Origin: an uncultured Candidatus Saccharibacteria bacterium
Lineage (GTDB): Bacteria; Patescibacteriota; Saccharimonadia; Saccharimonadales; Saccharimonadaceae
Reading direction: 5' to 3'
Length of the DNA: 40,105 nt
Assembly (NCBI GenBank): GCA_947425085.1
Contig: CANDYV010000004.1
Coordinates: 1 to 40,105, forward strand
Shown: in pieces, positions 5,637 to 39,952 of the stretch
Numbering within the stretch: position 1 is the stretch's first letter
Layout: each line of letters opens with the position of its first letter
Position numbers and translations under genes: made by a program
Notes under the pieces: generated by a model
Seen by the model: only the letters and a program-made list of their open reading frames with translations
Databases searched by the model: none
Told to the model about the DNA's origin: nothing

Positions 5637-6812
5637 ATGACTATTCACAAAAACTCCCAAAAAAGTCGAAAACATAAAACTGTTGGTCTACGCAAAGTTA
5701 TTGCTATCGTCGCAGTAGTTTCTGCAATTTTAATTAGTGAATCTTTTATTTTTGAAACTAGCGAAGAGGTTCAGGCCTACCCTGCCGGTTGCGTCACTCA
5801 AGCTTGCCGTGAAGCATCCGACCGCGCCACCGCTTCCGCGAATCGCGCCCGCGAGCTCGCCGCTAACGCTCAGACCTTGGAGAACGAAGTCAATCGTCTA
5901 AACGCCGAAATCGCCATGCTTGAAGATGAAATCGCCATGAACCAGGCCATCGCGAACGATCTCCAAGCCCAAATCATCTTGAACGAAGCCAAGCTCAACC
6001 TCCAGCAATCCGCCCTCGCAAAACTCCTCGTCGATATGCACTTTGACGAAGAACCTGACGCTATTTTAGTTCTCGCTAGTAGCAACTCACTCGGCGACCT
6101 CGCCGAACGCCAAACCCGCCAGACCAACGCCAAAACCCAAGTCACCACTTCCGCTGAAGCTATCAAAACCCTCAAAGAAGAACTCGAAGGCCAAAAGTCT
6201 AGCGTCGATGCTCTAATCGCGAGCGCCGAAGCCACACGTACCGAGATTTCTAATCGCCGCAACGAGCAGCAAGCGCTCATTGCTCGCTACGAAAACGATT
6301 CCGCCGCCTACGAACGCGACGCTGCCGCCGCTCGCGAAACCATGCAAAAAGAAATTGCTGCCGAAATCGCCAAATACAACAATGGCGGCGTCGTCGGCGA
6401 AGGCTACAACTCTTACCCCTGGGCGCATCGCTGCCCCCAAGACAATGTCGGATACATCGTCGTCGGCGGCTATGTCTGCCAATGCACCAGCTACGCCGGT
6501 TGGAAAGCACAGGAATACTTCGGTATCTATATCTCATCTTGGGGCGACGCTAAAAGCTGGGGCTACAGCGCTCAGCGCGCCGGCTACGTCGTGAACGATA
6601 CTCCCGCTCCGCACACTATCGCATATAGCACATCCGGTATTTACGGACATGTTATGTGGGTTGAAAGTATCAACGCCAACGGCACTATTAACCTCACCGA
6701 ATATAATAACAGCGCCAGCTCAAAGAGCCATCTCCCTGGTGACTTCGGCGCCCGCTACAACGTCAACCCTGCCCTCTACCGCTACATCCACCTCGACCAA
6801 CGACTCTGGTAA
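5637..6812 (+). CDS. Secreted coiled-coil CHAP-domain peptidoglycan hydrolase (PcsB-like)
   Basis: N-terminal TM/signal, long coiled coil, C-terminal CHAP region with CQCTSYAGWKAQEYFG and YGHVMWVESINANGTINLTEYN; adjacent to ftsEX. Confidence 0.85.
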   Translation: MTIHKNSQKSRKHKTVGLRKVIAIVAVVSAILISESFIFETSEEVQAYPAGCVTQACREASDRATASANRARELAANAQTLENEVNRLNAEIAMLEDEIAMNQAIANDLQAQIILNEAKLNLQQSALAKLLVDMHFDEEPDAILVLASSNSLGDLAERQTRQTNAKTQVTTSAEAIKTLKEELEGQKSSVDALIASAEATRTEISNRRNEQQALIARYENDSAAYERDAAAARETMQKEIAAEIAKYNNGGVVGEGYNSYPWAHRCPQDNVGYIVVGGYVCQCTSYAGWKAQEYFGIYISSWGDAKSWGYSAQRAGYVVNDTPAPHTIAYSTSGIYGHVMWVESINANGTINLTEYNNSASSKSHLPGDFGARYNVNPALYRYIHLDQRLW

Positions 6813-9255: not shown

Positions 9256-9283
9256 AAAAGTCTTCCACTTCTGGAAGACTTTT
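9256..9283 (+). terminator. Intrinsic terminator after the alpha/beta hydrolase
   Basis: AAAAGTCTTCCA-CTTC-TGGAAGACTTTT perfect 12-bp stem. Confidence 0.85.
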
Positions 9284-9301
9284 CTTGCATCATTTTCACC
9301 T

Positions 9302-9499
9302 CTCCGCCCCAGCCGCCGCCCCGCCAAATAAGTTATTTCTGATAAGTTAAGTTGTTTCGAAAAACTCACCGAACAACTTGTTGGGAACTTATCATATTAA
9401 GTTAATACCGCGATATCTATTTATTGTAAAAAGGAATAAGTATGTGCTATATCGACGCATATATGTACCTATTTGGCGGTTGCGGAGGCTGGGGCGGAG
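9302..9499. repeat. Inverted-repeat-bounded element 3' of FISUMP gene 1 (copy 1)
   Basis: Left arm CTCCGCCCCAGCCGCCGCCCCGCCAAATA; right arm TATTTGGCGGTTGCGGAGGCTGGGGCGGAG. Core AAAAAGGAATAAGTATGTGCTATATCG is shared with the copy at ~37962-38136. Confidence 0.8.
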
Positions 9500-9521
9500 A
9501 ATAATTTGAATGGTCGTCTTC

Positions 9522-10994
9522 CTATCTAGCGACGCAACGGACAGAAGAGCCCAAGTTGCGCGACGTGGTAGCAGCCGCATCAATATTGGTACTATCGTGG
9601 AAATATAGCTCCGAACTAGCATTGGCATTTACGCCCGTAGACGACCAATATCGGCCATTATTCCCAGCATTCACAAAATAATTAGTTGTTTGGTTGACGT
9701 AACCACCTTTTACAAAATAATACGGTGATGAAACTAATTTTACTACACTAGTTCCAACATTAGCAGCCGTAATTAAGGATCGAAAGGCGCCCGAAGTTCC
9801 TCCGGTTGGCAAGGTCCACCCTTTCGGACAAATGGAGCTAGTGGCTTGACCGAAAGACACACTCCCGCCAGTCCCAGCCGCTGCTGCATTCCATTGATAA
9901 TGATTTCCTAATATATAATGTGCGTTCACATCCCCATTAGCCGAAGTCGGCGTGTTATACGACGTAAATTGGGCACTACAGTTAGCTGCGCTACTATTTC
10001 CAGCACTACAAGAACTCGTGGAAGTCGGATTTGTAATCCTATAGTTTCCTAAATTCCAAGAACGCTGACCAGCGCTATCAGCCAAAATAGTAGAGCTAGA
10101 CGCAGTTGTTGCGGTGCTATACTCCGGAACCCAATTCGCAGTAACATCAGAATCGCTCGGAGTCAAAGCAGTTGAGGTAGAAAGGTCAAGATCTAAGTTC
10201 TGCGTCATCCAGCACTTTCCATCTGCCAACTTGCCGACCCAATAATACTTTCCGTCACGCGTATCACGAAGTTGCGCCTGGTCGCCATCAGCAACCTGCG
10301 AACAAATTGAACTTGTCATACCTTGCATAGTCGTAGTAAAATCAGCAAGCGTCATCTGTCTCGGGCTACTAACGACCGACACTACCACCTTATTTTCATA
10401 GATATCGGCCGGCTTATCATTCCCAACATGCGCCGCAAAGCTTAAAGTATATACGTCGCCATCTGACTTAATGTTAGTAGACGCATTTTCATCAATAACG
10501 TCACCCAAGCTATTGATTGGTATAGCCTGAAAGGTAGTACCCGGAGTTAAACCTTTAGTGACATTATATCCCCAGGAGTTAAGTGGCATGTCATTATAAG
10601 CAACTGGCGCAGCAATCGAATTGATAGTGGCTCCCGAAGAACGACCCGTTAATGTCGACTTGTTACTCCCGAAGTAAATAGTATAACCTCCAGAGTTTTC
10701 AATACTGATATAAGCCTGGACATAATATTGAGCAAAAGCGCCGTTAGGCGATGCAGGCGTAAGCGACGTAGAACCGGTAGCCTTTGTAAAACCAATATCA
10801 ACAGACGACTTAATCTCGGCTTGTGCCATCGGCTCGCTTTCATTCTCCGCCTGAACATCTGTCTCCTCCCCTGAACCGTCTAGCGCATTAGCCCTGCTTC
10901 CTAATGGGGGATTAACTAGCAAGAATGCCAGTAGCAACAAACTTATGCAGGTCGCGCTCCCAACAATATTAACTTTTCTTTGACCTTTTAGCAT
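9522..10994 (-). CDS. Secreted FISUMP-domain surface protein 1
   Basis: Signal-like N-terminus (MLKGQRKVNIVGSATCISLLLLAFLLV) and FISUMP core RDTRDGKYYWVGKLADGKCWMTQNLDLDL. Start at ATG 10994 with RBS AAGGAGGG. Confidence 0.85.
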   Translation of the reverse strand: MLKGQRKVNIVGSATCISLLLLAFLLVNPPLGSRANALDGSGEETDVQAENESEPMAQAEIKSSVDIGFTKATGSTSLTPASPNGAFAQYYVQAYISIENSGGYTIYFGSNKSTLTGRSSGATINSIAAPVAYNDMPLNSWGYNVTKGLTPGTTFQAIPINSLGDVIDENASTNIKSDGDVYTLSFAAHVGNDKPADIYENKVVVSVVSSPRQMTLADFTTTMQGMTSSICSQVADGDQAQLRDTRDGKYYWVGKLADGKCWMTQNLDLDLSTSTALTPSDSDVTANWVPEYSTATTASSSTILADSAGQRSWNLGNYRITNPTSTSSCSAGNSSAANCSAQFTSYNTPTSANGDVNAHYILGNHYQWNAAAAGTGGSVSFGQATSSICPKGWTLPTGGTSGAFRSLITAANVGTSVVKLVSSPYYFVKGGYVNQTTNYFVNAGNNGRYWSSTGVNANASSELYFHDSTNIDAAATTSRNLGSSVRCVAR

Positions 10995-11217
10995 CACGGC
11001 CCTCCTTTTGATTGGTTTATGAACGCCCGAACGAAGCAGTCTAATATACAAAAAGACGCCGCAAGGGCGTTCAACAAACTAATCTGCAAGTATTAGAAAC
11101 AAACAGTAAGTCTGAACCTTACGGCGTCATTTCACTAGTTGTTTCTAATTTTTGCACTTGTCCCATAAAAAGACACTTGCAGTTTTGATAATTAATTTGT
11201 TGAACACTTTCATTATA
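10995..11217 (-). promoter_or_regulatory. Structured 5' leader and promoter of FISUMP gene 1
   Basis: Minus-strand TATAAT (11212-11217); leader shares conserved blocks and paired segments with the leader of FISUMP gene 2. Confidence 0.75.
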
Positions 11218-11338
11218 TCACAACTTCACAAAACACAAGCCAAAAAACATTGCAAAATCCAAAACCATCAGTCGCCGCAAGCCAAAAACACCACAACACT
11301 AATAAAACATCACCAACTCTCAACAATGATACGCAAAT

Positions 11339-37878: not shown

Positions 37879-37961
37879 TTCCACCCCAGCCCCGGTTCAA
37901 TATGCGTTACGCATTGCGAGCCGGGGCGCTCGCTTTTCGCTCTACCCGTCTCACGCATCTT

Positions 37962-38136
37962 TCCGCCCCAGCCGCCGCCCCGCCAAATAAGTTCATAAAT
38001 CCGTTGGGTGGATTTATAAGTCCTTACGATATCGATTTTATTGTAAAAAAGGAATGAGTATGTGCTATATCGTTTCCTGCGTCATGATTCGCAGGCAGGT
38101 TGACTTATTTTGGCGGTTGCGGAGGCTGGAGCGGAG
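37962..38136. repeat. Inverted-repeat-bounded element 3' of FISUMP gene 2 (copy 2)
   Basis: TCCGCCCCAGCCGCCGCCCCGCCAAATAAG ... CTTATTTTGGCGGTTGCGGAGGCTGGAGCGGAG; core AAAAAAGGAATGAGTATGTGCTATATCG. Confidence 0.8.
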
Positions 38137-38242
38137 AAAACCTAGAAATTCCAGAAACCTTCAAGCTCTATCACCATTGTAGAGTTTTATTTTTCTCCAC
38201 CCCTGTTAGCCAATCCCCAAACTCTACAACCGTTGTAGAGTT

Positions 38243-39733
38243 TTACCGGGCGATACAACGGACAGACATACCATAATTCCTAGCATATGTATCGCCTAAC
38301 GGAGTAATAGTGGATGCACCGTTAAACGTCAAGTAATACGCAGTCGTACTGCTCGAAGCTTTCGGAGTAGAAGACCAGTAATATCCTTGGTCGCCAGCAC
38401 GAGCAAATAGCCAGCTGTTATTAGGTTCGACTTTACCACCCCTCACAAAATAATACGGAGAACTAGTTAATACGGCGACATTAGCACCCACAGAACCAGA
38501 GTTTATAAGTCCCTGCAAGCTACCGATACTCGTATCATTCGCTGTTGGCAATCTCCACCCCTTCGGGCAGATTGAATCGCTCGCCTGTCCAGAATAAATC
38601 TCACCACCAGTTCCAGCCGTCGCCGCATTCCAGGAGTAATGATTGCCCAAAATATAATGCGCATTAATATCCGCATTAGCGCTAGTAGGCGTCAAATATG
38701 CAGTAAATTGACTGGTGCAATTCGCTGCGCTATTTTTAGGGTATCCACAATCATTCGCTGTCGTCGGATTAGTGATTCGATAATTTCCCAAGTTCCAAGA
38801 ACGCGCCTGCATCCGGTCGTTCGTGATCGTCGAGCTAGTCGCACTCGTTGCTGTTGTATACCCAGGTGTCCAATTCGCAGTAACGTCTGAATCGCTCGGC
38901 GTCAACGCCTTCGATGTCGACAAATCAAGGTCTAAGTTCTGCGTCATCCAACATTTACCATCCGTCAATTTACCAACCCAATAGTATTTTCCATCGCGCG
39001 CGTCTTTCAGCTGCGCCGTATCGCCGCTTTTCGACGCCGCACAAACCGCCGTTGTCATGTCTTGCATGTTTGCCAACGACGTGAGACCAACTATCTCCAA
39101 CGGCGAAGACACCACACTCATCGTCACCGAATTCCGATAAGTTCCGGCCGGTTTATCTGCACCGATATTCGCCGCAAAGCTCAAAGCATAAGTCGTCGTC
39201 TCACTCGGGATACTTGTCGAAGCATTCGTATAAAGCGTTTCGCCCCGTCCCGCCGTCGAAATCGCCTTATATTGCGCATCATCCGCCACGGTATCCGTAT
39301 TTCGCGCCCAAGCATAGCCCCAGGTATTCGTCGTCATCTCGCCGTACTTCTTCGTTCCAGAAATCGGCGCAATCGTCTCCGTCCCGCCAACTCGCGTCAA
39401 ATTCGCACTACTACTCCCAACATAAACACTATATCCTCCCGAATTCTCCACGCTCACCGTCGCTTTCACTAACAATTTCGCCGACGCACCGGCCGTTGCT
39501 GACGGCGCCATCGATGCCGAGCCCTCCGTCGGACTAAAAGCAATATTCACCGTCGAAATTGTCGTCGCTTGCGGAGAAACTAAATCATCATAATTTTCAC
39601 TATTCTCAATAACTTCTTCCAGCGCACTCGCCCTACCTCCAATAAGTGGATTGACTAATAGAAATGCTAGTAGCAATAAACTTATACAGCTCGCACTCCC
39701 GGCGACATTAACTTTTCTTTGACCTCTTCGCAT
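38243..39733 (-). CDS. Secreted FISUMP-domain surface protein 2
   Basis: Paralog of gene 1: RGQRKVNVAGSASCISLLLLAFLLVNP and KDARDGKYYWVGKLTDGKCWMTQNLDLDL. RBS AAGGAGGG; ATG at 39733. Confidence 0.85.
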   Translation of the reverse strand: MRRGQRKVNVAGSASCISLLLLAFLLVNPLIGGRASALEEVIENSENYDDLVSPQATTISTVNIAFSPTEGSASMAPSATAGASAKLLVKATVSVENSGGYSVYVGSSSANLTRVGGTETIAPISGTKKYGEMTTNTWGYAWARNTDTVADDAQYKAISTAGRGETLYTNASTSIPSETTTYALSFAANIGADKPAGTYRNSVTMSVVSSPLEIVGLTSLANMQDMTTAVCAASKSGDTAQLKDARDGKYYWVGKLTDGKCWMTQNLDLDLSTSKALTPSDSDVTANWTPGYTTATSATSSTITNDRMQARSWNLGNYRITNPTTANDCGYPKNSAANCTSQFTAYLTPTSANADINAHYILGNHYSWNAATAGTGGEIYSGQASDSICPKGWRLPTANDTSIGSLQGLINSGSVGANVAVLTSSPYYFVRGGKVEPNNSWLFARAGDQGYYWSSTPKASSSTTAYYLTFNGASTITPLGDTYARNYGMSVRCIAR

Positions 39734-39952
39734 CACGGCCCTCCTTAAATTGGTTTACGAACACCCGAACGCCGCCACTCCATATAAAAATGACACCGCA
39801 AGGGTGTTCGACAAACTAACCTGTAAGCGAAACGCAATTAACGGATAGCCTGAACCTTACGGTGCCATGTTTTTCGTCAATTACGAATCGCTACTGTATA
39901 TAAAAATATACGCTTACTTTAATGGTTTAATTTGTCGAACACTTTCATTATA
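39734..39952 (-). promoter_or_regulatory. Structured 5' leader and promoter of FISUMP gene 2
   Basis: Minus-strand TATAAT (39947-39952) followed by GAAAGTGTTCGACAAATTAA and blocks shared with leader 1. Confidence 0.75.

Follow-up and report, generated by a model that had tools for sequence, protein, structure and literature searches.

Recurrent structured elements behind FISUMP genes of a Saccharibacteria bacterium: candidate 3'-UTR antisense RNAs for the start site of a hypermutated paralog

An imperfect inverted repeat stands directly behind a FISUMP (PF09603) gene in a 40,105-nucleotide stretch of an uncultured Candidatus Saccharibacteria genome (contig CANDYV010000004.1; hereafter the window), which raises the question of whether the repeat is a mobile element or a functional RNA and, in the latter case, what it acts on. 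An initial annotation, made from the letters of the window, had described GC-rich arms around a conserved core with pairing ends and had suggested a multi-branched RNA or MITE-like element. The arms proved to be 95% complementary between 9301-9319 and 9482-9500 and 92% complementary between 9321-9333 and 9467-9479, and the core is bounded by CGATAT and ATATCG at 9411-9416 and 9449-9454. Both described sub-hairpins, GATAAGTT/AACTTATC at 9341-9348/9386-9393 and AAGTTGTT/AACAACTT at 9349-9356/9372-9379, were recovered, as was the second copy with its ATAAATCC/GGATTTAT pair. The described position 3' of FISUMP gene 1 also stood, with the qualification that the minus strand gives the best reading, the element then standing as that gene's 3' UTR. 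The features of the window are collected in Table 1.

Table 1. Positions in the window of the element, its parts and the adjoining FISUMP genes
Feature	Position	Strand	Remark
3' element copy 1	9301..9500	-	putative multi-branched RNA in 3' UTR of FISUMP gene 1
Outer helix P1, 5' strand (RNA sense)	9467..9500	-	pair count
Outer helix P1, 3' strand (RNA sense)	9301..9333	-	pair count
P2 variable hairpin	9341..9393	-	pairing kept across differing copies
P3 helix CGATAT/ATATCG	9411..9454	-	closes the conserved loop
Antisense loop CAUACUUAUUCCUUUUUAC, copy 1	9426..9444	-	complementary to 5807-5826 on G000 contig 31, where the DGR-target FISUMP gene has its RBS and start codon
FISUMP gene 1 (PF09603)	9522..10994	-	ends ...SVRCVAR (stop); diverged paralog, not a live DGR variable repeat
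Structured 5' leader, FISUMP gene 1	10995..11205	-	terminator/anti-terminator-like strands; -10 box about 11211-11220
3' element copy 2	37960..38138	-	
Antisense loop CAUACUCAUUCCUUUUUUAC, copy 2	38043..38062	-	
FISUMP gene 2 (PF09603, over its cut-off)	38243..39736	-	ends ...SVRCIAR (stop)
Structured 5' leader, FISUMP gene 2	39737..39945	-	approximate end

The search for further copies that the annotation had called for returned 15 in the same genome (G000; 717 kb in 45 contigs, 75% complete), together with a single arm truncated where a contig ends, and 18 in a sister genome (G190, the public MAG CANAUU01 from an uncultured member of the Saccharibacteria), the latter found and aligned by a covariance model. 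E-values of the covariance-model search reached down to 9.8e-38. The copies measure about 150-330 nt, and in G000 the arms and core are nearly constant and two inner segments vary freely. Across 174 genomes of the genus, the covariance model placed the element in G000 and G190 only, besides one marginal match in G172 (E = 0.04) where no FISUMP gene was shown. An early pattern search, which used a species-specific core on genome and viral contigs, gave no match, and a later search with the complement of the conserved loop described below returned the G190 records (CANAUU01) and six unrelated single matches. No Rfam family matched the element at E ≤ 5, and the literature searched, mostly outside subscription journals, held no description of such an element. 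A weak Rfam match to STnc230 falls on a neighbouring terminator outside the element; the terminator-like hairpin of the convergent gene lies at 9256-9283 (AAAAGTCTTCCA/TGGAAGACTTTT), and similar hairpins adjoin several other copies.

The association with FISUMP genes was stronger than the annotation had suspected. All 13 complete element-bearing genes of G000 encode the FISUMP domain (copies on C28 and C32, at contig ends, are left out of this count), the element beginning 6 to about 133 bp past the stop codon, and all 15 G190 copies with a readable upstream gene likewise follow FISUMP genes, so that the two species together show no exception among 28 readable copies. The orientation relative to the upstream gene was constant in all of them, and in G000 the encoded proteins end in an RC[VI]AR-like motif. 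In four FISUMP genes an extra hairpin, AACTCTACAACGGTTGTAGAGTT, stands directly past the stop codon and before the element (L034 9791-9815, L038, L042 8470-8494, and the window at about 38215-38242 on the minus strand).

On the FISUMP-sense strand, the copies share one fold that consists of the outer helix P1 (25 pairs, interrupted by two internal loops of fixed position), the variable hairpin P2 (whose loop reads ACCCAAC in most copies of G000), the short helix P3, which encloses an open conserved loop, and an optional hairpin P4. As annotated, the sub-hairpins vary between copies and stay paired, P2 differing in sequence with its helix retained. A structure test on 14 copies found 96.3% of cells paired and 8 two-sided pair changes, whereas shuffles gave 4.6 such changes and slid controls 0-2. 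Paired substitutions also separate the species at the inner end of P1 (CG to TA in 7 rows, GC to AT in 8 rows, and AU in most G000 rows versus GC in 18/18 G190 rows). Changes compatible with G.U pairing, counted over both species, fell on 66 cells of the FISUMP-sense strand versus 23 of the other, and the outer 13 pairs favoured the sense strand by 18:5. In folding models, the loop was unpaired with a value of 0.49-0.93 on the sense strand (mostly about 0.8) and 0.19-0.75 on the antisense strand. A terminator or T-run directly 3' of the stem was present in 4 of 29 copies, which does not give the element the makeup of an intrinsic terminator. The compensatory changes, the strand bias of G.U pairs and the fixed internal loops support the RNA half of the annotated alternative, namely a multi-branched RNA on the FISUMP-sense strand.

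The conserved core is real as well, and the annotation, confined to the window, could not see that it is antisense to the RBS and start codon of another gene. The loop, CACAUACYUAUUCCUUUUUUAC, is nearly invariant across copies and hardly changed between G000 and G190, and its stretch 5'-CAUACYUAUUCCUUUUUUAC-3' is complementary to 5'-GUAAAAGAGGAAUAGGUAUG-3' at the start of a further FISUMP gene. The predicted pairing spans 20 contiguous bases with 1-2 G.U over the Shine-Dalgarno sequence and start codon, is interrupted by a bulge or mismatch in a few copies, and is lengthened beyond the start codon by a UAGC/GCUA helix. When both whole genomes were searched for the 18-nt loop complement at up to 2 mismatches, the matches comprised the elements and a single extra site per genome, the FISUMP Shine-Dalgarno/start codon in each case (C31:5809-5826 in G000, C5:23602-23619 in G190); three G190 pattern matches (C1, C53, C82) were confirmed as elements by the covariance model. 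The remaining 172 genomes of the genus contained a single match to the pattern at ≤ 1 mismatch. The loop-target duplex was predicted at -29.5 kcal/mol in G000 and -32.2 kcal/mol with the G190 loop, compared to -18.1 and -20.3 kcal/mol, respectively, for the runner-up among 675 start sites, and none of 250 shuffled loops matched the real duplex energy. Net of the opening costs for both partners, the energy was -16 to -25 kcal/mol in 22 copies. These predictions indicate a complementarity to the start site that goes beyond chance. RNAcofold returned no loop-target interaction, which was to be expected, since cofolding cannot model pairing by a loop that a helix encloses; sterically, fitting a 20-bp duplex into a closed loop of some 30 nt is tight, and the A/U-rich P3 would have to open to admit it. 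The target start site is identical in G000 and G190, so loop-target covariation cannot be shown, and loop and target are so alike in the only two species available that the loop may descend from a copied RBS.

In both genomes, the gene that carries this start site adjoins one for a reverse transcriptase (PF00078, motif GRGIVIGNLTSQ, YVDD). Compared with the template repeats, the target FISUMP gene differs at 42% of template A positions versus 8% of the others, which is the mark of mutagenesis by a diversity-generating retroelement (DGR) and identifies the target as a live variable repeat; the locus thus combines a reverse transcriptase gene, a template repeat and an A-biased variable repeat. 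The target gene runs off its contig in both genomes, its 3' end lying outside the assembly. In the 13 element-bearing paralogs, 30-59% of non-A positions depart from the templates, and these genes are not live targets; the element thus goes with the non-mutating FISUMP members, and its loop with the one that mutates. What DGRs diversify in Patescibacteria are putative contact proteins, and in the literature searched we found no report on expression control of the DGR-hypermutated gene.

Taken from the sequences, the element is probably a 3'-UTR antisense RNA, through which the mRNAs of FISUMP paralogs, or sRNAs processed from those mRNAs, would repress translation of the hypermutated paralog. 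The long GC-rich helix may serve as a platform for the variable hairpin and for the short helix that displays the open pyrimidine-rich loop. We infer that the elements are transcribed with their genes and pair in the cell: transcription of a paralog would yield a 3' UTR, as whole mRNA or cut sRNA, that covers the Shine-Dalgarno sequence and start codon of the DGR-target mRNA, and translation of the DGR-target FISUMP would then be blocked. The purpose might be to prevent joint expression of the hypermutated paralog and the archived ones. More tentatively, a family of surface-protein mRNAs could double as antisense RNAs that silence its own DGR-diversified member, an RNA-level exclusion between a stable receptor archive and a hypermutated receptor; such an arrangement, if true, would be a many-to-one RNA circuit joining a receptor repertoire to a hypermutation system.

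The nearest described mechanism, by analogy, appears to be that of the icaR mRNA of Staphylococcus aureus, whose 3' UTR carries a C/U-rich motif that pairs with the Shine-Dalgarno region and blocks translation (PMC3868564). Both cases have a bacterial 3' UTR with a C/U-rich antisense to a Shine-Dalgarno region, the pairing here being predicted, and the present element likewise lies downstream of the stop codon in sense. In icaR, however, a 7-nt motif acts on its own 5' UTR, whereas here a 20-nt loop, set inside a dedicated multi-branched RNA and borne by about 15-18 paralogous mRNAs, would be aimed at another gene. RNAIII and 3'-UTR-derived sRNAs also expose pyrimidine-rich loops or tails antisense to Shine-Dalgarno sites of surface-protein mRNAs, and typically one locus serves many targets. 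The FISUMP elements share the pyrimidine-rich loop antisense to the Shine-Dalgarno sequence of a surface-protein mRNA, but with the numbers reversed, many loci facing one target.

The foremost alternative is an RNA that acts on its own mRNA only, through stability, 3'-end formation or protein binding, with the start-site match left over from shared ancestry. RNA structure and 3'-UTR position fit it, and the loop also matches, over a short stretch, the Shine-Dalgarno sequence AAAAGGA that is common among FISUMP genes (duplex -14.7). This explanation nevertheless leaves unaccounted for why the conserved loop coincides almost exactly with a 20-nt antisense stretch centred on the Shine-Dalgarno sequence and AUG and why no other site in the whole genome matches its complement, and few copies are followed by a T-run or terminator; we regard it as unlikely. 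Another candidate is an enlarged DGR-target hairpin or cruciform, which would direct mutagenic homing to the variable repeat before it, given that the element stands just 3' of C-type-lectin variable-region homologs and that in DGRs the variable repeat is followed on its 3' side by a hairpin/cruciform (PMC3240598). In the BPP-1 type, this is a DNA structure with a GC-rich stem of 7-10 bp and a 4-nt GRNA loop behind live variable repeats (PMC3240598). The likeness is one of position only, both being inverted repeats that stand 3' to the variable region of a C-type lectin: the present element is about 150-330 nt long, differs in stem, loop size and loop sequence, has a strand bias that favours RNA, and follows genes that are not live variable repeats, only the one on C31 fitting that description, which makes a homing function very improbable.

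We give as little credence to a 3'-flanking homology repeat for gene conversion among the dispersed FISUMP genes, for which the Sma/Cla repeat of pilin genes offers the comparison. The element does follow every readable dispersed family member and its arms are strongly conserved, but the variable helices retain pairing and not identity, and the most conserved part is a single-stranded loop whose antisense target is unique. The MITE-like half of the annotated alternative is the least credible, since the terminal inverted repeats and many copies that recommend it are outweighed by the absence of a target-site duplication (0-2 nt in 29 copies), constant orientation, compensatory evolution, and no free-standing copy, all 28 readable ones lying behind FISUMP genes. 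An integron-like cassette was rejected, as the 5' boundary of the units has no common sequence beyond promoter and leader. An antisense promoter or a small ORF on the plus strand (TGTGCTATAT, MCYI) was not favoured either, the frame past the ATG being unconserved and the ATG lost in one copy.

Several observations accompany these loci. G000 contains at least 8 dispersed template-repeat genes (C36:428-616, C40:3004-3195, C16:9195-9380, C1:81006-81185, C1:83597-83782, C32:6176-6358, C20:338-526 and C6:7404-7601), with one reverse transcriptase found, and each repeat sits within a conserved non-coding stretch (TATAAT, GGAGATCG ... template repeat ... CGATCTCC). In G190 about eight template units form a tandem array (C63:1-5619, L218; C68, L219). 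Template units vary by 15% at A positions versus 7% elsewhere, as if they were targets too. Adjoining the reverse transcriptase gene, and also found in G190, are genes for an NYN-domain protein (PF01936; L058:2207-2755, minus strand) and for a protein of 304 aa that matched nothing in Pfam or PADLOC (L058:4489-5400, minus strand), the latter possibly a DGR accessory protein. In G020, another species of the genus, three FISUMP genes are followed by a sequence-unrelated multi-hairpin 3' element (L112, L118, L119) that shares roughly AAAAACCGGGTGGCTAAAC; its match to the Shine-Dalgarno sequence of the DGR target there, judged by eye, is 7 bp, too short to count.

At their other end, 12 FISUMP genes of G000 carry a structured leader of about 190-250 nt behind an extended -10 promoter. 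The leader copy of the window had no Rfam match at E ≤ 5, and from its sequence this undescribed leader resembles an attenuator or riboswitch. Its closing helix is long and variable in sequence, and the 3' strand can pair either with its own 5' strand or with a second copy just before the Shine-Dalgarno sequence; a conserved GGCACCG-type segment pairs with CGGTGCC followed by a T-run.
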